Program-made: the position numbers and the translations under genes
Assembly (NCBI GenBank): GCA_945881865.1
Contig: CAMCVK010000020.1
Span: forward strand, 1-33,804
DNA length: 33,804 nucleotides
Source of the DNA: Fimbriimonas ginsengisoli Gsoil 348
Lineage (GTDB): Bacteria; Armatimonadota; Fimbriimonadia; Fimbriimonadales; Fimbriimonadaceae
Direction of reading: 5' to 3'
In this document: piece after piece, positions 7,464 to 27,887 of the stretch
Layout of the letters: every line of letters starts with the position of its first letter
How positions within the stretch are numbered: the stretch's first letter is position 1
The notes under the pieces: generated by a model
Databases searched by the model: none
What the model saw: the letters and a program-made list of their open reading frames with translations, nothing else
What the model was told of the DNA's origin: nothing

Positions 7464-9791
7464 GTCCCAAGTCGGGCCGAAGAATCCGGCGGCCGAAACG
7501 CCGTCGATCCCTTTCTGAAGGTGGTCGGCGGCCAGGACCATGAAGTCGGGCATCCCCGCGCCCGAGGTGAACAGCGGCACGCGATAGGACGATCTTGCGG
7601 CGGCGAGGCTCGTCGGCGAGATCGTGGCTACGGACGCAATCTCGGAGCCCGGGCGAGGCCGAATCATGAACAGCGTATTGCCGCCGGTGAGGGCGATGCT
7701 CTTGCCGTCCGCAAAGTTCAGCGAGATCGCGGTTGTGCCGCCCCGGACCGGGGAATCGCCGAGGAGGTCGCTCTGGCCAAACACGAGCAAGTTTCGATCT
7801 TTGAACTTTGGCGCGTCCTTCTCTTCGATGATTTCTACTGCGCCGTTGCCCCGGTAGTAGTAGGTTTCGGCGGCAAATCGCGCGGCCTTTCTTGCCCAAT
7901 CCTGCATCTCGGCGGTTCCTTGGGAGCCAATCACGAACACGACTCGGTTCCGGAAAATGTCTTTGAAACTTCCGGACCGGTTTTGATTCTTCTCTTTCGT
8001 GCTCGGCAGCGAAGCAATTCGCCAAGTTGTGGCTCCGCGCTGTAGCGTGAGTCGGTCAGCCGTTGTCGTGACGGTTTGGCCGTCGATTTCCACCTTAACC
8101 GGGCCCTGAGTCGCCAACGGTGCGGGATCCAAAGTGAGGGACCGCACGTTCTCGGTCGTCACCCGGAAGGTCGCCAACTGCGGCATCGCCTCTGCGACCA
8201 CCCGTGAAGGTGCAAACGAGGTGGTACTTTGGTTCACGGTTACCCAAAAGGACCGGCTCGAAATACCGGGATCGGCGGTGCTGAAATTGACCTTTCGAAC
8301 TTCGGACGTTTGCGGCAATCTGGCGGCGGCGAAGGAGCGCCAAATCTCGACGTCATCAACCGCGTCGGCTCCCGGCTCGGGCGAACCATCCCACCAGTGG
8401 CCCGCGCCCGGCACTTCCTTCCACCGCAGCCGCGCCTGCTTGGGCAGCAAAAGCTCGCGCATTCGTCGGGCTTCCGTCACCGGGACGTTGTCATCGGCGT
8501 CTCCGTGGAGCACGAAAATCTCTGGCGTGAGGAGGTTATCGATCCGGCTCAGGGTGTCGCTGGGCGAATTCGCGCGCGTCAGCACCCGACCGACCGCCGT
8601 ATCCGGGAAGGTCGGCGAGCCGGTGTAGCTGTTGAAGCTGATCCAGCCGGCGCTGGGGGCGATTGCGGCGAACATCGACGGGAAATTGGAGCCCATTTGC
8701 CAGGTGCCGTGGCCGCCCATCGAGTGGCCGGTGGCGTAGATTCGCGTCGGATCGGGCTGGAATTGCGCGCGAGCGTGATCCAGAACTTCCATGGCATCAC
8801 GCCGGCCAATGTCCTCCCAGTCGAATCCATACGGGCGTCGGTTCGTGGCCGCGACCAGGTTTGCCCATGTCTTTTGGCCGTAGGCTTCGGCTTGGCCCTG
8901 CGCTTCGACGCTCGCTCCGTGCATAGAAAGCACCAGCGCCTGGCCAGCGCCCGGCCGCAACGAAGGCTGGACCGCGTAGTACTGCACGCTGCCATCGATG
9001 TCGCTGATGAAGGTTCGGCGGTAGCTCTCGGTGGTCTTCCGAACCCGCAGCGTGATGGTCTGCTCGTCGGCCGCTTTTCCTTTTTGAATCAGCCGCAGGG
9101 TCACGCGACCGTCCTTGCCGGTGGGGATCTGAAAGCCGACTTTGCGGACGCTCTCAGCCGGCACCGGCGGAAGCTTCGTCCGGACGGTGCGGCCGTTCGC
9201 GCGGGCTTCCAATGTCAGGTCGGATTGAACGTCCGCCGTCGCGTTGCGGACGATGATTCCTCCCCAGAGCGGCCGTTTGTCGGATGGAAGCAGGTCCGGC
9301 ATCGTGGTATCGCGCAGATCGAGACTTACCGGCGCGGTCACCGGCACGAGCCGCGCCGAGAACGAGCCGCGACCAACCGCGAAGACAAACTCGTGCGATC
9401 CCGCCGAGAGTCGAACCGGCAAGGAAAGGTAACCGAACGAATACGGGTCGCCGGCCCTGGGCGCACCGTTAACGTAGGCGGCCCCGTTCCCTTTTGCTTC
9501 CAAGAAGAAAGCCTTCTCCTGCGGCAGATTCAGCGTAAATCGAACATAGCCGCTCTGGAAGGGAGGTCCGGAAAAGACGCCTTCTTTCGCCGTAACCGGC
9601 TTCCAATTTGTGACGTCGAAGCGGCCGGTTTCGGCGAAAGCGGCTTCGATCGGATCTCTGCGGATGATGGAGCGCGGCGAACCCGAAACGCCGATTGCGA
9701 GGCCTTCGGAGAAGACAATCGGGGCGTCGGCGGCAAGGGCGATGGCAATAAGGCCGGTGAGCACAATGCCATTATGCCTTTCGGTTAACAT
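7446..9791 (-). CDS. Large secreted alpha/beta hydrolase (prolyl-oligopeptidase/esterase-like)
   Basis: A 781-aa protein from ATG 9791 (a second ATG at 9797 adds two residues). A signal peptide (IVLTGLIAIALAADAPIVF) is followed by a beta-rich N-terminal half, then an alpha/beta hydrolase domain with nucleophile GHSMGGHGTW (Ser357), acid loop LHGDADDNVPV and histidine loop GAGHWWDG, giving a complete catalytic triad. A further C-terminal region of about 300 aa (from about FVIGSQGTAEMQDWARKAA) resembles nothing I can name. This layout is seen in secreted esterases and peptidases of the S9/PHB-depolymerase-like group. Longer N-terminal frames read antisense through the NamZ-like gene and were discarded. 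It is divergent from the NamZ-like gene with only 6 bp between start codons. Confidence 0.82.
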   Translation of the reverse strand: MLTERHNGIVLTGLIAIALAADAPIVFSEGLAIGVSGSPRSIIRRDPIEAAFAETGRFDVTNWKPVTAKEGVFSGPPFQSGYVRFTLNLPQEKAFFLEAKGNGAAYVNGAPRAGDPYSFGYLSLPVRLSAGSHEFVFAVGRGSFSARLVPVTAPVSLDLRDTTMPDLLPSDKRPLWGGIIVRNATADVQSDLTLEARANGRTVRTKLPPVPAESVRKVGFQIPTGKDGRVTLRLIQKGKAADEQTITLRVRKTTESYRRTFISDIDGSVQYYAVQPSLRPGAGQALVLSMHGASVEAQGQAEAYGQKTWANLVAATNRRPYGFDWEDIGRRDAMEVLDHARAQFQPDPTRIYATGHSMGGHGTWQMGSNFPSMFAAIAPSAGWISFNSYTGSPTFPDTAVGRVLTRANSPSDTLSRIDNLLTPEIFVLHGDADDNVPVTEARRMRELLLPKQARLRWKEVPGAGHWWDGSPEPGADAVDDVEIWRSFAAARLPQTSEVRKVNFSTADPGISSRSFWVTVNQSTTSFAPSRVVAEAMPQLATFRVTTENVRSLTLDPAPLATQGPVKVEIDGQTVTTTADRLTLQRGATTWRIASLPSTKEKNQNRSGSFKDIFRNRVVFVIGSQGTAEMQDWARKAARFAAETYYYRGNGAVEIIEEKDAPKFKDRNLLVFGQSDLLGDSPVRGGTTAISLNFADGKSIALTGGNTLFMIRPRPGSEIASVATISPTSLAAARSSYRVPLFTSGAGMPDFMVLAADHLQKGIDGVSAAGFFGPTWDLAAGG

Positions 9792-9797: not shown

Positions 9798-11051
9798 ATG
9801 CACGTGCTTTCTGGGCTGGATGTCGTTGTCGCGGAGGACCTCTCGAGGTTGCGGGGGCAGAGTATCGGCCTGGTCACAAACCAGGCCGCCATCGACTCGC
9901 AGTATTGCCACATCCTCGACCTCTTCCTACCCTTCCACCGACGCGGCGAGCTCAACCTCGCCGCTGTCTTCGGCCCGGAGCACGGCCTCTTCGGACACAC
10001 GCAGGACAACATGATCGAGTGGGAGGGCCTGCCCGACCCGCGAACGGGCGTCGTCGTGCATTCGCTCTACGGCGAGCACCGCCGGCCGGTCCAAAAAATG
10101 ATGGCGGGGGTCGAGCGGTTCGTCATCGACCTTCCCGACATCGGAAGCCGCTACTACACATTTGCCTGGACAATGGCGCACTGCCTGGAGGCGGCCGTCG
10201 AGTTTGGCGTCCCCGTAACGATCCTCGACCGCCCGAACCCGATCGGCGGCACGATTACCGAGGGACCGGTCCTCGACTTGGCATATTCGAGCTTCGTTGG
10301 TTTATATCCCGTTCCCACCCGGCACGGCCTCACGCTTGGAGAAATCGCGCGGTTCGTCAACGAGTTCCACCTCGGCGGCGCGGTTGACCTGGAGATCATC
10401 GAAGCCCAGGGCTGGGACCGTGCGCAGTATCAAGACGAAACCGGGCTGCCATGGGCGATGCCGTCGCCGAACATGCCCACCGTGCAAACAGCGGCGGTCT
10501 ACCCGGGCGGCTGCCTCTTGGAGGCCACAAACCTGAGCGAGGGTCGCGGCACCACGCGTCCGTTCGAAATCTTCGGCGCACCATTTCTGGACGGCTGGAA
10601 ACTCGCTGAATCCCTCAACCGCCTCGAGCTCCCCGGCGTGATCTTTCGGCCGCTGCCGTTCGAGCCGACGTTCAACAAACACGCACGGCAGCTCTGCGAG
10701 GGCTGCTTCGCTCACGTCACCGACCGAAGCACCTTTGAGCCGGTGCTCGCGTACGTCGCCATCCTTCAAGAGTGCCTGCGGCAGACCGGGTTGCACGATT
10801 CGTCAACGGTCGCGCGGCCCGACGTCTTTCAGGCAAACTCCAGCGAAACCGGGCTTGGCGGGTTCGCTTGGAAGCAACCGCCTTACGAGTACGTGAACGA
10901 CCGGATGCCAATCGACATCCTTGCCGGAAACGGCTGGCTACGGGGCGACATCGAGAACCTCACGCCGCTCGGCGAAATTCGGGAAAGGTTCCGAACTGAA
11001 TCCGCGAAGTTTCTTCAAGAAACATTGCCGATTCGTGGCTACGCCCACTAA
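9798..11051 (+). CDS. DUF1343 / exo-beta-N-acetylmuramidase NamZ-like (GH171)
   Basis: A 417-aa protein with the DUF1343 pattern along its length: GLDVVVAEDLSRLRGQSIGLVTNQAAID, AVFGPEHGLFG, RFVIDLPDIGSRYYTFAWTM, VTILDRPNPIGG, PVPTRHGLTLGEIARF, LPWAMPSPNMPT and LLEATNLSEGRGTTRPFEIFGAP. NamZ of B. subtilis, the founding enzyme, removes terminal MurNAc from peptidoglycan fragments. Unlike that secreted enzyme, this protein starts directly at the domain with no signal peptide (MHVLSGLDVVV), so it would act in the cytoplasm unless the start is wrong; there is no room upstream for one. It is divergent from the secreted hydrolase. Confidence 0.9.
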   Translation: MHVLSGLDVVVAEDLSRLRGQSIGLVTNQAAIDSQYCHILDLFLPFHRRGELNLAAVFGPEHGLFGHTQDNMIEWEGLPDPRTGVVVHSLYGEHRRPVQKMMAGVERFVIDLPDIGSRYYTFAWTMAHCLEAAVEFGVPVTILDRPNPIGGTITEGPVLDLAYSSFVGLYPVPTRHGLTLGEIARFVNEFHLGGAVDLEIIEAQGWDRAQYQDETGLPWAMPSPNMPTVQTAAVYPGGCLLEATNLSEGRGTTRPFEIFGAPFLDGWKLAESLNRLELPGVIFRPLPFEPTFNKHARQLCEGCFAHVTDRSTFEPVLAYVAILQECLRQTGLHDSSTVARPDVFQANSSETGLGGFAWKQPPYEYVNDRMPIDILAGNGWLRGDIENLTPLGEIRERFRTESAKFLQETLPIRGYAH

Positions 11052-11104
11052 TCAGGCGGAAGTTTCCCCTCCCACCTTCCAGAAGTTAGGCGAGAATGCA
11101 TTTC

Positions 11105-11120
11105 TTAACAAACTCTTAAC
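11105..11120 (+). promoter_or_regulatory. TTAA-type direct repeat upstream of pilin-like gene 1
   Basis: TTAACAAACTCTTAAC consists of two TTAAC half-sites whose starts are 11 bp apart, one helical turn. The second half-site begins 98 bp before the ATG at 11214. The same spacing appears upstream of pilin-like gene 2 (12449-12464) at 97 bp. This could be an operator or part of a promoter. An inverted repeat GCGGGCA/TGCCCGC (11123-11129/11152-11158) follows in the leader. Confidence 0.45.
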
Positions 11121-11213
11121 GTGCGGGCACCATTATGTGTGAGGGTTTTTATGCCCGCCTTGAGGATGTCTGCGTTCCTAACGTCGGCTGTCAGCAAGTG
11201 AATTGAGGATCTT

Positions 11214-12206
11214 ATGAAGAAAGCATTTACTCTCATTGAACTCCTCGTAGTCATCGCGATCATCGCGATTTTGGCTGCGATTCTGTTCCCCGTTTTCGCT
11301 CAGGCTAAGGCTGCTGCAAAGGGAACCCAGGCAATCTCGAACCAGAAGCAGATCGGTCTCGGAATCGTTCTCTACGCTGGCGACTACGACGATATCCTGC
11401 CGCGACAGGATGGCTGTAACGACAAGTCGGCTCTCAACACCGCTCTGAACACGAACCCGTTCAATGCGACCGGCGTTGGCTGCTCCGCTTCGCCGTTCTT
11501 CTACCGCATGAACCACTTCTCGTGGCAGAAGTGGATTCTTCCGTACACGAAGAACACCGAGATGTTCGTCAACCCCTTCCGCGGCCGAAGCAACCGACTT
11601 ACCCCGAGCTGCCCGACCGGCGAGTGGACGGGTTGCGGCCAGCTGACCGCTAGCTTCGCCCTCAACCTTTCGCTCTTTGGTGCGCTTAACACGTACAACC
11701 AGAGCCCGACCGCTGTGAACCAGTACCGCGACTCCTTCCGCGGCGGCAGCATCAACAACCTTCCGGACGTCGCAGGCGCGATGATCGCGATGGAAGTTGG
11801 TAACCCGAACATCGCATTCGCTCCGACGTCGCCGGTTACGGGTGACGCGGGTGTGACGCAGATCAACTACGCTCCGGCAGTCCGAGAGGTCTGGAAGCGA
11901 GAGTTCTACAAGTCGTCCACGGCTTGCGACGCGACCAACACGGCCGACTGGACCGATTCCAACGTAATCGATGAGACCCGAGCACCCCGCGGCGGCTTCG
12001 CCGTTGCTTACGCCGACGGTCACACGAAGTTCATGAAGGTGAACGAGTTCCTTGGCAAGACCCCGACCGCAGCTGAGTACGGCGTGGCCGTTCCGTCCTT
12101 TACGTCCTCGGGTGTAGGCCGATGTATGTTCCCTGGCGGAACGTTCCGCATCAGCAACATCCCGAACACCAACATCAACTTCCCGCTCTGGGGCTTGGGC
12201 GGCTAG
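11214..12206 (+). CDS. Type IV pilin-like H-X9-DG protein, cassette 1
   Basis: A 330-aa protein with a class III prepilin signal [20 protein letters not shown] and Glu at mature position 5; the residue before the cleavage site is Ala instead of Gly. The membrane helix is followed by a cysteine-rich globular domain (C68, C90, C133, C141, C238, C304). The C-terminal [14 protein letters not shown] (D268-G269-H270) matches the DUF1559/H-X9-DG tail, but the His expected nine residues before DG is absent. It ends in [10 protein letters not shown] good ribosome site (TTGAGGATCTTATG) and even codon use suggest strong expression. The stop overlaps the start of a small lipoprotein gene. These proteins are processed by a prepilin peptidase; none is encoded here. 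Confidence 0.92.
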
Positions 12207-12367
12207 TGCGCAAGATCGCCGGAATTCTGGCAACGCTGTTCGCTGTCGGCATTCTTGTCGGCTGCGAGCCATCCGAAGACCGCACGGACGTGCGGGACAA
12301 GATGGAGCAGGCCAAGAAAGCTGATGCCGAAGCGGCAAAGGCTGAAGGGACTCAGGACAACCCTTAA
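12206..12367 (+). CDS. Small lipoprotein of pilin cassette 1 (53 aa)
   Basis: GTG at 12206 overlaps the last base of the pilin stop (TAGTG), giving 53 aa. It has a lipoprotein signal: Arg-Lys, a hydrophobic run (IAGILATLFAVGI), and lipobox LVGC with Cys20 as the lipidated residue. The mature peptide is only 34 aa, highly charged and probably helical (DVRDKMEQAKKADAEAAKAE). The one-base overlap with the pilin gene implies translational coupling. A strong terminator follows 6 bp after the stop. I recognise no family. The same kind of gene follows each of the other two pilins. Confidence 0.85.
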   Translation: MRKIAGILATLFAVGILVGCEPSEDRTDVRDKMEQAKKADAEAAKAEGTQDNP

Positions 12368-12373
12368 AAAGGT

Positions 12374-12399
12374 GGCCCGCCGAAAGGCGGGCCTTTTTT
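12374..12399 (+). terminator. Rho-independent terminator of pilin cassette 1
   Basis: GGCCCGCC (12374-12381), GAAA tetraloop, GGCGGGCC (12386-12393), then six T. This is a textbook intrinsic terminator directly after the small lipoprotein gene, showing that pilin and lipoprotein form one transcription unit. Confidence 0.93.
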
Positions 12400-12448
12400 G
12401 CGCCAAGTTATAAAAACTTCGCCATAAATCATGTTCGACGCCAAACTG

Positions 12449-12464
12449 TTAAAGCTCTCTTAAC
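12449..12464 (+). promoter_or_regulatory. TTAA-type direct repeat upstream of pilin-like gene 2
   Basis: TTAAAGCTCTCTTAAC has the same 11-bp spacing and shares the CTCTTAAC right half with the element at 11105-11120. The right half-site begins 97 bp before the ATG at 12557. A hairpin GTGGCG-GCAA-CGCCAC (12487-12502) with a GNRA loop lies in the leader between the element and the start codon. Confidence 0.45.
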
Positions 12465-12556
12465 AATTGGGCCTTAGAGTTAACCGGTGGCGGCAACGCC
12501 ACTCTTGCGCAAGCTGGGTCTTCACGGCCCTGATCGCGAGGATTTTGAGGAACATT

Positions 12557-13531
12557 ATGAAAAAGGCATTTACCCTTATCGAGCTTCTCGTGGTCATCGC
12601 GATCATCGCGATTCTCGCCGCAATTCTCTTCCCTGTTTTCGCCCAGGCAAAGCTCGCCGCAAAGAAGACCTCGTCGCTTTCTAACCAGAAGCAGATCACG
12701 ACGAGCATGTTCCTTTACACCAGCGACAGCGATGACATCTACGCTCGAAACGACGAGTGCATCCTGTTCAGCTCGCTCAACCCGGCTCTCAAGACCCCGG
12801 CCCTCAACTCCGCCACCGGCCAAGGCTGCACGCCTAACGGCAGCACCGGCTTCTACAACCGACTGAACCACTTCAGCTGGCCTAAGTGGGTCATGCCCTA
12901 CGTTAAGAACACCGACATGTTCTTCAACCCGGTTAAGGGTCGCGTCACCGGCGCTACCTTCGGTTGCACGGCCGGCGCTTGGGAGAGCTGTGGTCAGATG
13001 TTCGGCAGCTACGCTATCAACCTTTCGATCACGGGTTCGTTGAACACGTACGACGAAGCAGTTGGAGCCAGTTCGCAGCGAATCTATCGAAACAGCTGGA
13101 CGGGCGGCACGCAGACGGCTCTCCGGAGCCCGGCTGAGACCCTCCTGTTCTGGGTGACTTCGAACCCGACCACGTCGGTTGTTCCGAACGGCTTCCTTGA
13201 TGCAGAGTTCTCCAACTACTCGGCGACCGTTTACCCGGCCGTCGTGCGAGAGCAGCTCATCAACGACCTCTACGACGGCGCCAACGACGGCACCGCCACC
13301 GGCAAGAAGCTCATCGACTCGCGAACGGAAGCTGGCGGATTCAACATCGGCTTCGCCGACGGTCACGCCAAGTATATGAAGGCAGAAGCCATGATCGGCC
13401 AGACGCCGACCATCGCTGAGTACTCGCCAGGAATGAGCAGCACCCAGGCAGGACTTGCCGGTTCGACCCAGCGACTTGGCGCTGCCGTCAACCTCAACGT
13501 CAACTACCCGCTCTGGGGTCTCGGCCAGTGA
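12557..13531 (+). CDS. Type IV pilin-like H-X9-DG protein, cassette 2
   Basis: A 324-aa paralogue of the cassette 1 pilin: the first 32 residues are identical ([13 protein letters not shown]... to AQAK). Conserved landmarks are SNQKQI, F-Y-x-R-x-N-H-F-S-W, GQMFGSYAINLS and the tail GFNIGFADGHAKYM (D268-G269-H270), ending in NYPLWGLGQ. It has four cysteines (C68, C91, C137, C145) matching the first four of cassette 1 but lacks the third pair. The start at 12557 follows TTTTGAGGAACATT, nearly the same ribosome site as cassette 1; an in-frame TTG at 12467 would add 30 residues in front of the prepilin signal and was rejected. Arg is mostly CGA. The stop overlaps the next start by four bases (GTGA). 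Confidence 0.92.
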   Translation: MKKAFTLIELLVVIAIIAILAAILFPVFAQAKLAAKKTSSLSNQKQITTSMFLYTSDSDDIYARNDECILFSSLNPALKTPALNSATGQGCTPNGSTGFYNRLNHFSWPKWVMPYVKNTDMFFNPVKGRVTGATFGCTAGAWESCGQMFGSYAINLSITGSLNTYDEAVGASSQRIYRNSWTGGTQTALRSPAETLLFWVTSNPTTSVVPNGFLDAEFSNYSATVYPAVVREQLINDLYDGANDGTATGKKLIDSRTEAGGFNIGFADGHAKYMKAEAMIGQTPTIAEYSPGMSSTQAGLAGSTQRLGAAVNLNVNYPLWGLGQ

Positions 13532-23683: not shown

Positions 23684-24151
23684 CTAGCGGCTAGGCCCGG
23701 CGGTCTCATTTGCACGAATCTTGGCAACCAATCCGGTGGTTGATCGTCCGGCGAGCGTCGGCAGGATCACGACTTCGCCACCGTAGGTGCGGACGATCTT
23801 GGCCTCGGGCAGCATGTCCTCGGTGTAATCGCCGCCCTTTACGTGAACTTCGGGGCGCAGAACTTCGATGAGCCGCTCCGGCGTGTCCTCAGCGAAGGCA
23901 ACTGCGCCCGAGACGGCTCGCAGGGCTTCAAGCACCGCAATGCGATCTTCAAGCCGGTTCAGCGGCCTCTCCGGACCTTTTTGCAGACGCCTCACGCTGG
24001 AGTCGTCGTTGACACCGACGATTAGCAGATCGCCTAGTTCGGCGGCTTGCGAGAGGTATTGGACATGGCCGGCGTGGAGAAGGTCGAAAACTCCGTTGGT
24101 AAAGACAAGCTTCCGCCCCTCTCTCAATTGCAGCGCGGCTTCGAGCGTCAT
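23684..24151 (-). CDS. rfaE2: D-glycero-beta-D-manno-heptose 1-phosphate adenylyltransferase
   Basis: A 155-aa nucleotidyltransferase, the stand-alone counterpart of the C-terminal half of HldE. It makes ADP-heptose from heptose-1-phosphate and ATP for LPS core. The N-terminus has LVFTNGVFDLLHAGHVQYL with the HxGH motif (H26, H29), then VGVNDDSSVRRLQKGPERPL and VHVKGGDYTEDMLPEA. The ATG at 24151 overlaps the stop of the upstream heptosyltransferase by four bases (ATGA); an upstream in-frame extension inside that gene was discarded. The kinase half (HldE1) and the other heptose genes are not in the window. Confidence 0.93.
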   Translation of the reverse strand: MTLEAALQLREGRKLVFTNGVFDLLHAGHVQYLSQAAELGDLLIVGVNDDSSVRRLQKGPERPLNRLEDRIAVLEALRAVSGAVAFAEDTPERLIEVLRPEVHVKGGDYTEDMLPEAKIVRTYGGEVVILPTLAGRSTTGLVAKIRANETAGPSR

Positions 24152-25068
24152 CGCAGGACCTCCCGCAGGGTTTCCGTCACCGGCTCTGGGAGGATATTCC
24201 CAAGACCCGCCGGGTCGTAGTGGCAACGCTCGATTTGGCCGTACGGGCAGCTGCGCTGCGGACGGGTGATGCTGTAAAGCCCAATCGCCGGGATGCCGAG
24301 TGCGGCGGCCAGGTGGGTGCTTCCGGTGTCGCCGCCAAGGTGCGCGGCCGCGAGGCTGACTAACCCGACCAGTTCGGGAATGTTTGTTTGCCCGGCAAGA
24401 TCAAAAGCGGTGCCTGGCGGCAAGCCGTCAAGGACTTCGGCCACCGCCGCTTGATCCCCTTTCCCCCCGAGAAACACCACGGGTACGCCGTCTTGGCCAA
24501 GGCTTCGGCACACGGCCGCAAAATGGGCGGGCGGCCAACGCTTCGTCACCCAGCCGGCCCCGGCATTCATCACGACGAAGCGACCGCTAACGCCGATGGC
24601 AGCGAGCTTTTCTCGAACGGTTTCCAGCGGACCATCTTGCGGCGTCAAAGCGAACTCGGCGACATCGCTTGCGAGCGGATTTTCATCCGGCCGAAACGCC
24701 CGGACGACGTCAACGTACTGGTCCACGACGTGGAATGATGTCGGATCAGGAAGCACCCGCGCCGAGAACGCCCAGGCTGCCTCCCGCTGCCAGTGGTAGC
24801 CCAGCTTTTCGGGGGCTTTCGCCCGGCCCACGCAGATTGCGCTTTTGAGGAGCCCTTGAAGATCGAAGGCAGCGTCAAACGGCATCGGCCAACTCGGAAT
24901 CGTCCTCAGCCCGGGCTTCACCCGCACCACTTCATCCACGGCGGAACACGCCTCAACGATGCCGGCGAAACGCGGGTCCACCGCCCAGGTGACGTGGCAA
25001 TCGGGGAACCGCGCCTTGAGGGCCGATGCGGCCGGGAGCGTGCAAACGACGTCGCCCAGCGCGCTCAA
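24148..25068 (-). CDS. Glycosyltransferase family 9 (heptosyltransferase) protein, second copy
   Basis: A GT9 enzyme, 306 aa if the TTG at 25068 is the start. Motifs: SALGDVVCTLPAASALKARF, AFDLQGLLKSAICVGRAKAP, VMNAGAGWVTKRWPPAHFAA, VVFLGGKGDQAAV and the ADP-heptose region HLGGDTGSTHLAAALGIPAIGLY. It transfers heptose to the growing LPS core. Odd point: the family's first strand (RFLIAR) is encoded in frame just before the TTG, but the codon where the start should sit (25089-25087) is GTA, overlapping the TAA stop of the upstream gene. No ATG, GTG or TTG lies between there and about 70 bases upstream, so the true start is unresolved. Confidence 0.88.
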   Translation of the reverse strand: MSALGDVVCTLPAASALKARFPDCHVTWAVDPRFAGIVEACSAVDEVVRVKPGLRTIPSWPMPFDAAFDLQGLLKSAICVGRAKAPEKLGYHWQREAAWAFSARVLPDPTSFHVVDQYVDVVRAFRPDENPLASDVAEFALTPQDGPLETVREKLAAIGVSGRFVVMNAGAGWVTKRWPPAHFAAVCRSLGQDGVPVVFLGGKGDQAAVAEVLDGLPPGTAFDLAGQTNIPELVGLVSLAAAHLGGDTGSTHLAAALGIPAIGLYSITRPQRSCPYGQIERCHYDPAGLGNILPEPVTETLREVLR

Positions 25069-25085
25069 TCGGGCGATGAGGAACC

Positions 25086-26021
25086 TTACGCTCCGCCTCC
25101 CGACAAGTAGTGAGCGGCTGCCTCGAGGACTTCCTCGGGGGAAACCTTTTTCGGGTCTGCGTCGCGAAGCAAAACCGTTCCCGATTTCGTGTAGGGTCGG
25201 TAGAGAACCGGGTCCATCGGCCCGAAAATGCTCACGACCGGCGTCCCGACGGCGGCGGCCATGTGTCCGGTCCCGGTGTCTCCGGCGAGATGCAGTGCGC
25301 TCTCAGCGACAACCCGCAAGGACTCCTTGAGCCGCAGTTTGCCCACCTGGTTCTCGATTCCGTCAACTTCCAGCGGCTCGTCGTTCTTGCCACCCAGCGC
25401 GACCACGCGGAAACCCTTCGCGATTAGGTCCCGCGCGATCCGCTCCCAATGTATCCGCGGATAGATCTTGCTGGGGTGGCCCGCTCCCACCGAAATGCTG
25501 ACGAGGTTAGGCTGCCGCACGGCACCCACATCGGGCAAGGTCGGCCGCTCGGCAAACTCAAACGGCTCCAAGTGGTTCAGCACCGCATGGTTCCACTCCA
25601 CCGTGTGCATGTCGGCGGTGCGGCCGGTCGCCAGCGGATTAAGGCAGCTGGCAAACCGGTCGGTCGCGGCGGCAGAGATTCGTTTCTTAGGCGAGGCAAT
25701 CCGCAGGCAAAGGGCAGTCTTGGAGTGGCCCTGCAAATCCAGCCCGAGATCGAAGCGGAGGGCGCGCAGTCGGACGTATTTCGAGAGTTGCTGCTGCCAT
25801 GTCGCCGGCGACCACTTCTTTTGTTTCCAACGGTCCCGGGGAAACTCATACCGTTGGGTCACAAGTCGGTGCCGATCGATGACCGGCGCGCAGCGGCCTT
25901 CGACGGCCCAAACCAGGAATCCGTCGGGATATTTTTGGCGAATCGCCGTCGCCGCCCAAGTTGCCATCACGCAGTCTCCGATGGCACTAAACCGAACCAG
26001 GAGGATGCGCGGGCCGGTCAT
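25086..26021 (-). CDS. Glycosyltransferase family 9 (heptosyltransferase) protein, first copy
   Basis: A 311-aa GT9 enzyme. N-terminus MTGPRILLVRFSAIGDCVMATWAATAI, then DLGLDLQGHSKTALCLRIASP, VSISVGAGHPSKIYPRIHWERIA, VVALGGKNDEP and LHLAGDTGTGHMAAAVGTPVVSIFG. Like the adjacent copy it probably adds heptose or a related sugar to lipid A-core; acceptor order cannot be told. The ATG at 26021 overlaps the lpxL-like stop (ATGA), and GT9 homology begins exactly there. It is clearly a paralogue of the next gene. Confidence 0.9.
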   Translation of the reverse strand: MTGPRILLVRFSAIGDCVMATWAATAIRQKYPDGFLVWAVEGRCAPVIDRHRLVTQRYEFPRDRWKQKKWSPATWQQQLSKYVRLRALRFDLGLDLQGHSKTALCLRIASPKKRISAAATDRFASCLNPLATGRTADMHTVEWNHAVLNHLEPFEFAERPTLPDVGAVRQPNLVSISVGAGHPSKIYPRIHWERIARDLIAKGFRVVALGGKNDEPLEVDGIENQVGKLRLKESLRVVAESALHLAGDTGTGHMAAAVGTPVVSIFGPMDPVLYRPYTKSGTVLLRDADPKKVSPEEVLEAAAHYLSGGGA

Positions 26022-26923
26022 GCGATTCCTTGCAGCAGTCCCCGCTGACGCGCGCTTTTCCACCGATCATGCATCCACAGGTACTGGCTGGGAAACTGCC
26101 GAATCACGGATTCAAGGGCAAAGTTTGCCGCCGCCGTCAGCCGCTCGGCGTCTTGCTCGGCCCGATCCAGATTGATCGCCGGAAGGATGATGACCCGATA
26201 CTTTCCGACTCCCACTCGAACGCAGTAGGCCGGCAGCAGAGCGGCCCCGGTTCGAAGGTGCAACTTTGCTGGTCCGAGAACCGTGCCGCAGGGTTGCCCA
26301 AAGAACGGCACGAAGCATTCACTCGCGTTCTGGTCTGGAAGAATGCCAACCAAGCCGCCGCGTTTGAGCTCCCGCAGCAACGCCGTTGCGGCGCTGCCTC
26401 GCGAAAGCACTTTTACGCCGGTTGCTTCGCGCATTTGGAGAACCCGCTGTTGGAGCGCGCCATCATTGGCGTCACGGGCAACGACGGTAATCGACCGCCC
26501 GGTTCCGGTGCAATATTGGGCGAAGCGTTCCCAGTTGCCGAGGTGTGCGGTTAGGGCGATGATTCCGGTGCCTAGGCTTTCGGCGGCTTCCAAGTTCTCC
26601 GTCCCGGTGACCTCCACATTGTTCAGCACTTCCTGGTTCGACCGGATGCGGGTGCGGAAGAAGTCGCTGGCCAAGATGCCGAAGTGCCGGTACACGTTCC
26701 GGGCACCGTCATCCCACTGTTCGGGCGTCCACTCAGGAAAGGCGATCTTCAGGTTCGCATGGGTTCGAATGCGGTGTTTTTTGTCGAGGCGATAGGCAAT
26801 GAGGCCCCACTTTTCGCCTCGCCGTTCGGCTTCGGCGATGCTGCCCTTCTCGAAGTAGCGTTGCGTGACGCCGAACATCGAGAGCGAGACTTTGTCCACC
26901 AGGGCGCGTCGTCCCTCATTCAT
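26018..26923 (-). CDS. Lipid A biosynthesis late acyltransferase (LpxL/HtrB family)
   Basis: A 301-aa lysophospholipid-type acyltransferase. The catalytic H-X4-E is H127-LGNW-E132, followed by GRSITVVARD, VGILPDQNASECFVPFFGQP and a C-terminal PSQYLWMHDRWK, all standard for LpxL/LpxM. It transfers a fatty acyl chain to a lipid A precursor at the inner membrane. The N-terminus is short and only weakly hydrophobic (VSLSMFGVTQRYF). The ATG at 26923 overlaps the lpxK stop by 8 nt; a longer frame into lpxK was discarded. Confidence 0.9.
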   Translation of the reverse strand: MNEGRRALVDKVSLSMFGVTQRYFEKGSIAEAERRGEKWGLIAYRLDKKHRIRTHANLKIAFPEWTPEQWDDGARNVYRHFGILASDFFRTRIRSNQEVLNNVEVTGTENLEAAESLGTGIIALTAHLGNWERFAQYCTGTGRSITVVARDANDGALQQRVLQMREATGVKVLSRGSAATALLRELKRGGLVGILPDQNASECFVPFFGQPCGTVLGPAKLHLRTGAALLPAYCVRVGVGKYRVIILPAINLDRAEQDAERLTAAANFALESVIRQFPSQYLWMHDRWKSARQRGLLQGIA

Positions 26924-27887
26924 GGAGTTTGCTTCCGAGCCAGTTTCGCCATTCGTTAGCGGGCTCAACCGAAACCCGGTGGCGAGCGATCACGACGTTG
27001 TAGCCGCCGATATCGCTCCGATCCCGAAGTTTCACCCAGTCTTTGCCGGTGACGATCACGGGCAAGCCAGGGTTGAGTCCTTCCCATAAATTACCCGCGA
27101 CCAGCGGATCATGGTCGCCGAGTCGCTTTGCTTGCGTCAATTTCGCGTCGGGAAAATCCTCCCGCAGCGCGTCGATGAATTTTTCCGGCTGGCCTAGCGC
27201 ACAAATTAGCTGATATTCGACCGGCATTTCGACTGGCCCGCCAAGCGCCGATTCGAGCCGGGTTTTGCTTCGCACCACGCGGAACTCGCCGGGAAGCACG
27301 ACCTCGGCCCGACGGCGGTTCCAGGGCCCCTCGCGGTAGGGTCCGGCCGGCAGACAGAACCGGTTTCGTGTGGGCGGATCCAAGACAATCGAGAATGTCT
27401 TTGCCACCGGCAAGTGCTGGAATCCGTCGTCCATCACGAGGATCGCCCCGGGAAAATGCTCCTCGCACAGCTGCGCGGCAAGCACCCTTCGGCGACCGAC
27501 GATGAGCGGCACGTTTGGGAGTTCATCGCGGAACGCGGCCGGCTCATCGCCCCATTCCGCCGCCTTGAGTGGTCCCTCCGGCGCGACCGCGGCCGCCACC
27601 GAGTGCGGGCCACCGTAGCCGCTGGCCCCGATGACGACCCGGTGGCCCATCGCGATCAGCGTCTCGGCCATAAACAGTGTAAACGGGGTCTTCCCCGATC
27701 CCCCGACGACCAAGTTTCCAACGCAGATGATCTTGCCCTGGCTTCGGTACGGCTTTTTGAACCCGAAGCGGTAGATAGCAAGGTAGCCCTCCCAGCCCAA
27801 TGTGTAGAGCACCGAGATCGGCAACAGCGCGGCGCGGGCGAGGAATACCGACGCCGTACGACCGGTCCAGACCTCTTCAATGCGCAC
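26916..27887 (-). CDS. lpxK: Tetraacyldisaccharide 4'-kinase
   Basis: A 323-aa LpxK, which phosphorylates the 4' position of the lipid A disaccharide. It has an N-terminal membrane-associated helix (ARAALLPISVLYTLGWEGYL) and a Walker A of the LpxK type, GNLVVGGSGKTP (57-68), then VMDDGFQHLPVAKTFSIVLDP, a family signature, and PAGPYREGPWN. The start is GTG 27887, with TACAAT five bases upstream and no Shine-Dalgarno, so probably leaderless. First gene of the overlapping operon lpxK-lpxL-GT9-GT9-rfaE2. Confidence 0.95.
   Translation of the reverse strand: MRIEEVWTGRTASVFLARAALLPISVLYTLGWEGYLAIYRFGFKKPYRSQGKIICVGNLVVGGSGKTPFTLFMAETLIAMGHRVVIGASGYGGPHSVAAAVAPEGPLKAAEWGDEPAAFRDELPNVPLIVGRRRVLAAQLCEEHFPGAILVMDDGFQHLPVAKTFSIVLDPPTRNRFCLPAGPYREGPWNRRRAEVVLPGEFRVVRSKTRLESALGGPVEMPVEYQLICALGQPEKFIDALREDFPDAKLTQAKRLGDHDPLVAGNLWEGLNPGLPVIVTGKDWVKLRDRSDIGGYNVVIARHRVSVEPANEWRNWLGSKLHE

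Follow-up and report, generated by a model that had tools for sequence, protein, structure and literature searches.

How is translation initiated at a gene whose frame is intact and whose N-terminus is conserved, when the place of its start codon reads GTA? This question is raised by the second of two adjacent glycosyltransferase genes, hereafter gene 2, in a 33,804-nt stretch of DNA from Fimbriimonas ginsengisoli Gsoil 348, the whole of which was analysed and is called the window below.

The operon and its GTAA junction

The Pfam matches around gene 2 follow one another in the order LpxK, lipid A acyltransferase, two Glyco_transf_9, cytidylyltransferase-like, and then an SRP54-type GTPase. 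All on the minus strand, these comprise an lpxK-like tetraacyldisaccharide 4'-kinase gene (26916..27887; PF02606, E=1.7e-53), an lpxL-like lipid A acyltransferase gene (26018..26923, with its ATG at 26923; PF03279, E=8.7e-50), gene 1, which is the upstream GT9 paralogue with a canonical ATG start (25086..26021; PF01075, E=1.8e-26), the GT9 heptosyltransferase-like gene 2 (24148..25089, with 313 sense codons counted from the GTA and then a TGA; PF01075, E=3.1e-39), and a cytidylyltransferase-like (heptose nucleotidyltransferase-like) gene (23684..24151; PF01467, E=1.5e-19). The lpxK-, lpxL- and cytidylyltransferase-like neighbours are suggestive of a role for gene 2 in heptose transfer to the LPS core.

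As to the protein itself, gene 2 belongs to the GT9 family with 135.2 bits against PF01075, for which the curated cut-off is 22, and it matches WaaC/WaaF chains in the PDB. The sequence match to WaaC spans residues 2-288, and in the HMMER alignment residue 2 of the GTA-started protein falls on residue 2 of E. coli heptosyltransferase I (2gt1), the GTA taking the position of residue 1. Moreover, an AlphaFold2 model of gene 2 (mean pLDDT 92.9, from 14 aligned sequences) has a predicted strand at residues 2-6 and a helix at 11-27. Relatives are found in 16 named database records, 11 of them at 56-64% identity in metagenome-assembled genomes titled Armatimonadetes, Fimbriimonas, Fimbriimonadaceae, Chthonomonas or 'bacterium'.

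Two junctions of the operon read ATGA, at 26021-26018 before gene 1 and at 24151-24148 after gene 2, as a first-pass annotation of the sequence had pointed out and as direct reading and a script confirmed; its statement that the remaining junctions overlap too is borne out by lpxK and lpxL, which share the 8 nt ATGAATGA (26923-26916). Between genes 1 and 2 the same place reads GTAA (25089-25086), where the TAA stop of gene 1 (25086..25088, minus strand) lies over the GTA (25087..25089, minus strand) and the genes overlap by 4 nt, given that GTA is the start. In fact gene 1 ends with GGA GCG TAA, and the frame of gene 2 reads AGC GTA AGG TTC CTC ATC GCC CGA TTG, so that the GTA is in frame with the conserved N-terminus and its RFLIAR, again by both direct reading and script. 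A GGGAGG Shine-Dalgarno (SD) sequence at 25096..25101 (minus strand) ends 6 nt before the GTA.

Further upstream, 71 codons (213 bases) of the gene-2 frame lie open as far as a stop at 25305-25303, with no ATG, GTG or TTG among them, by which an upstream in-frame canonical start is rejected; the figure of about 70 bases given earlier was right as to the absence and too modest as to its extent. The sole ATT, ATC, ATA or CTG codon in this stretch is one ATC, 32 codons before the GTA. Downstream, the first canonical codon is the TTG at 25068-25066 (25066..25068, minus strand), correctly placed by the earlier annotation, which had counted six codons where there are seven. Ordinary gene callers would pick this TTG, being the first in-frame canonical codon. 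Starting there, the protein would begin at residue 8 and thus lose its first strand (2-6), just as had been predicted, and the nearest and only SD-like piece is an AAGG 15 nt upstream; that gene 2 is translated from the TTG, as a protein without its first strand, is in our judgement very unlikely.

As a base rate in the own genome, 19 stretches of 20 kb together with the window, holding 342 predicted genes, gave 64 places with an in-frame 4-nt overlap, and a noncanonical codon occupies 29 of them. By our own count the nearest canonical codon is more than 12 nt away in 14 of these 29, and an SD match of at least 5 nt is seen at one of the 14, namely at the GTA of gene 2. GTA is present at 10 of the sampled overlap places, seven of which have a canonical codon within 6 nt. 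Since the bare geometry is not rare, the case for a GTA start rests on homology and the SD rather than on geometry.

No stop or frameshift was found inside gene 2. Compared over the 19 sequences of its genus, it keeps 93 of the 95 columns that are invariant in the 18 congeners and breaks two (the others break 0-4), and its end branch in a quick tree is 0.52 against a median of 0.41. The gene shows no sign of decay, and the reading as a pseudogene was rejected.

Start codons of the orthologues across the family

Of 85 genomes, 71 yielded gene 2 in a family search with a cut-off of E<=1e-60, and the start could be read in 70 of the 71. A canonical start is located 1-8 codons before the conserved R in 62 orthologues, and none is present in the other eight, which are the window genome, G016 from the same genus, and six of the eight genomes of the genus g47. 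In G016 the sequence runs GGAGGAGG-CATT-CTG, i.e. ATT CTG, and the first canonical codon comes 20 codons in. In the six g47 species (G101-G105 and G108) ATC holds the start position with an SD 5-6 nt before it, and in G101 and G102 the first 25 codons are free of any canonical codon; the remaining two g47 genomes start with ATG. Thus seven other species lack the canonical start and have an SD followed by a near-cognate codon. In the majority of the closest congeners the start is found one codon before the place of the GTA, at a position occupied by AGC in the window genome. These data bear on the TTG as well, because the segment that it would remove is kept behind a canonical codon in the 62, and in G016, G101 and G102 the first canonical codon lies far inside the gene. 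Of the three readings offered by the first-pass annotation, namely a G-to-A change, a sequence error and a non-standard start codon, the comparison of relatives favours the last, with eight noncanonical cases in 70 and an ATC shared by six.

The proteins of the six ATC species are 63-92% identical, and their fourfold sites are 25-61% identical, which means that synonymous sites are largely randomised and that the ATC has been kept over a long divergence. In the g47 overlap a gene-1 codon for Pro, Ser or Arg supplies the A of ATC with its third base, and TC opens a conserved Ser codon. As this variable gene-1 codon retains its third-position A in all six, the pattern points to selection on ATC, while part of the conservation could be due to the overlapping gene 1. 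In a quick tree there are three changes between canonical and noncanonical starts and the six g47 rows group together (SH-aLRT 98), hence the eight orthologues amount to at least three cases and not to eight independent ones.

The SD sequences were scored by the best match 4-11 nt before the start; in Fimbriimonadia the SD is given as AGGAGGUGA in PMC10783764. The mean match is 6.0 nt in the eight noncanonical orthologues vs 3.7 nt in the 62 canonical ones, with Mann-Whitney p=5e-5 by rows and 0.011 with one row per event (three cases only), a comparison partly biased because the SD was taken into account in placing the start of G016.

The upstream stop falls at the same 4-nt place in 11 of the 67 measured orthologues, some of which have lpxL as the upstream gene, and it is TGA in 10 of them and TAA in the window only. 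Its position relative to gene 2 is -2 (frame 1) in the window, +11 (frame 2) in G016 and +19 (frame 1) in g47. Such varying frames argue against a frameshift at the end of gene 1 that would fuse the two genes and make a start codon for gene 2 unnecessary, an idea invited by the frame of gene 2 being open far into gene 1 and by the SD-like sequence before the junction. No slippery heptamer was seen at the junction by eye, and we consider the fusion highly improbable.

The GTA, however, is a single case among the 70 orthologues, and this allows for a recent start-codon mutation (e.g. GTG to GTA), arisen in this lineage or strain, by which the gene would have been silenced or nearly so, too recently for decay to have begun. 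Of the 11 orthologues that share the 4-nt junction 10 have TGA, which agrees with this, the lack of decay fits a young change equally well, and a GTA at the start place of another gene has been read as a lesion in PMC3411506. Against it stand the strong SD that is retained and the canonical start missing from the same gene in seven other species, in six of them over a long divergence, so that we hold a recent mutation to be unlikely. The source genome is moreover a 26-contig draft (98.2% complete) and one letter is decisive, whereby a base error in the assembly consensus might hide a canonical codon. Gene 2 nevertheless has no frameshift or other defect, seven orthologues are likewise without a canonical start, and an ATC common to six species cannot be an error; such a slip is in our opinion quite unlikely. 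Together, a young mutation and an error make up a possibility that is a minor one but has to be taken seriously. Concerning the origin of the GTA, the single change from GTG suggested earlier is plausible in view of the TGA at the related junctions, and it is not the sole route, since the loss of three bases from a junction of the TAATG type could have had the same result.

Two further observations were made among the orthologues. The heptosyltransferase gene of G002 (L015), counted among the 62 canonical ones, has a CTGA junction with GAGGTG 6 nt upstream, and its nominal GTG lies within that GAGGTG; for this reason G002 may really use a CTG start. The very similar genes of G089 and G090 (L160 and L161) have GTG and GCG, respectively, immediately before the conserved R, and both retain an in-frame ATG two codons further up.

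Control genes and neighbourhoods

Gene 1 has a canonical start in all 48 loci where its N-terminus was found, 22 of the 70 loci giving none, and the difference from gene 2 has a one-sided Fisher p of 0.013 when counted by species. For infC, whose start codon was taken as the last near-cognate codon before the conserved core, a canonical start before the core is absent from 20/20 genomes of the genus, with ATA in 14, ATC in five and ATT in one. The own-genome infC (L061, G000:C1) has ATA placed 6 nt after GAGGTGA. In g47, three of the eight infC genes were parsed, each with ATT, and all eight were flagged as lacking a canonical start.

A test for missing starts was applied to the 20-kb neighbourhoods of gene 2 in 14 genomes (13 of the genus plus G025; 94 gene instances) and in eight g47 genomes (132 instances), as well as to the infC neighbourhoods in 12 genomes of the genus (89 instances) and eight g47 genomes (106 instances). 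In its last, stricter version, whose flags were sorted by eye by the author and not by program, 72 of the 421 instances were flagged (24/106, 20/89, 10/94 and 18/132), and these consist of 20 infC genes, eight copies of gene 2, one lpxL (G018), one apparently interrupted ORF in G108, two shadow frames (plus strands of L059 and L201) and 40 genes with a canonical codon within 8 codons. The flagged infC genes are those of 8/8 g47 and 12/12 genus genomes, where in G107 a canonical codon comes 7 codons past the conserved start, and the gene-2 flags are the six g47 species, G016 and the window. In the Fisher comparison of 8/22 for gene 2 vs 1/204, the counts are of species and not of events, are read by eye, and assume that all 22 gene-2 copies are included. 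The counts for infC, gene 2 and lpxL suggest that near-cognate initiation occurs in this family, even at ATA, whose third base is mismatched as A-C, and judging from the two sampled neighbourhoods it would be rare beyond infC and these envelope genes.

Several other loci were noted in the course of this comparison. The lpxL genes of G001, G015 and G018 (L020, L023 and L024), situated upstream of the heptosyltransferase gene, have no ATG, GTG or TTG start and share AGGAG-CGAATCC-CTG AAT AAG AAA. In the own genome, the minus strand of L097 has at about position 8301 of the locus a CTGA junction preceded by GGAG at a distance of 9 nt, and canonical codons are absent for 54 nt, which makes it a further candidate for a near-cognate start. 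In L208 (G108; 10878-12792), the ORF opens at a stop inside a conserved region and has no canonical codon for 66 codons; it is probably interrupted in this draft genome.

A probable weak start coupled to gene 1

With its canonical start absent, its frame intact, its SD normally spaced and the infC of the same genome itself bearing a near-cognate codon, we propose that gene 2 is probably translated from the GTA, weakly, in coupling with gene 1 and by the ordinary initiator tRNA. The CAU anticodon of this tRNA would decode the GUA of an intact gene. The two make a poor match, with the G-U pair of GUG at the first position and the A-C mismatch of AUA at the third, so that initiation would be weak. 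The well-placed SD would support it, and ribosomes finishing the overlapping gene 1 would re-initiate at gene 2. The outcome would be that less of this enzyme is made than of its operon partners, and the start may, like that of infC, be sensitive to IF3. Since gene 2 is recurrently found without a canonical start in relatives, its poor start codons look like a recurring way to keep the enzyme scarce and not only like a sequencing slip. An altered initiator tRNA with a UAC anticodon was also considered and rejected: among the 45 tRNA matches of the 98.2% complete genome the one initiator-like tRNA (L119), which we take to be such by its initiator features, has CAU.

Known systems resemble gene 2 in part. 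The closest likeness is infC, which has a near-cognate start behind an SD, ATT in E. coli and ATC in Streptomyces (PMC5472188). Like the infC-type starts, gene 2 has no canonical start at the N-terminus defined by homology and has an SD (GGAGG) at the normal spacing, with a gap of 6 nt. The difference is that infC controls its own discriminating factor, by IF3 autoregulation, whereas gene 2 encodes an envelope glycosyltransferase within an operon and its GTA, unlike the infC starts, combines two poor positions. In the Streptomyces sigR, a GTC start is functional and repressed by IF3 and sets the ratio within a coupled pair (PMC5472188). As in gene 2, this is a noncanonical start with G first, two bases from ATG, in a cotranscribed coupled pair; sigR, however, is the upstream gene, a regulator and experimentally tested, while the start of gene 2 is predicted.

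For GUA itself, the precedent is the recJ initiation mutation of E. coli (Haggerty and Lovett 1997, as cited in PMC2268962 and PMC6200909), which is usable at low efficiency and is, according to PMC6200909, the sole GUA start whose function its authors knew to have been demonstrated. It shares with the start proposed for gene 2 the low efficiency, the coupling to an upstream ORF and the involvement of IF3; it differs as a laboratory mutant said to be without SD, whereas the GTA of gene 2 is natural, has an SD, and stands in a family with near-cognate starts. According to the same source, the natural non-AUG starts that are known lie a single base away from AUG. The ATC of the six species and the CTG or ATT of G016 are such codons, while GTA is two bases from ATG and one from GTG. 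A GUA start may therefore be too weak, the more so as the recJ GUA works at low efficiency and needed IF3 mutations for its suppression. In vitro with E. coli components, IF3 poorly tolerates weak third-position pairs, and GUA with a matching UAC initiator is among the better pairs (PMC10158994). For another bacterial gene, PMC3411506 mentions a GTA start, described as highly atypical, which was taken as probable loss of function and whose use was left open.

As to coupling, the 4-nt ATGA and GTGA junctions of termination-reinitiation (PMC10666635) have the same stop-over-start geometry as GTAA, which with GTA as the start has the 4-nt overlap of coupled junctions. The difference lies in the stop, for TAA can overlap by 4 nt only start codons ending in TA, and no canonical start does. 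An SD aids re-initiation, and an excess of IF3 lowers it (PMC2268962). It is on such findings (PMC10158994, PMC5472188, PMC2268962, PMC6200909 and PMC3411506) that we read the GTA as a weak, coupled start keeping the enzyme scarce.

Very few noncanonical starts have been characterized, according to PMC5472188, and our literature search, in which subscription journals are scarcely covered, found among the matches listed no report of near-cognate starts on LPS genes and no paper on a heptosyltransferase with a non-canonical start codon. This short list would be extended by an ATC start that six species conserve outside infC and by what is probably a natural GUA start, and callers accepting only ATG, GTG and TTG truncate such genes, here at the TTG, or move their starts. 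More tentatively, and as a view that we think rather doubtful in its full extent, the dose of an LPS-core heptosyltransferase might be set across this family by deliberately poor starts (ATC, CTG/ATT and GTA), as might that of a lipid A acyltransferase by CTG in one clade. Envelope assembly would then be tied to the amount of IF3 and the supply of ribosomes, and this genome would possess a natural GUA start that functions. With such start codons, the tuning of envelope synthesis by the IF3 level would become testable.

The mRNA around the start is predicted to form a fold (25057..25119, minus strand) that pairs the SD and exposes GUAAG in a hairpin loop, with -29.1 kcal/mol and a z of -2.51 as predicted values, vs a mean of -17.6 (sd 5.1, n=62) in the canonical orthologues. 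Such a fold, if real, would make initiation at gene 2 depend on a ribosome arriving from gene 1, and it can equally be read as an argument against efficient initiation. In the other seven noncanonical cases the predicted folds range from -11.2 to -21.1 kcal/mol and are not extreme.
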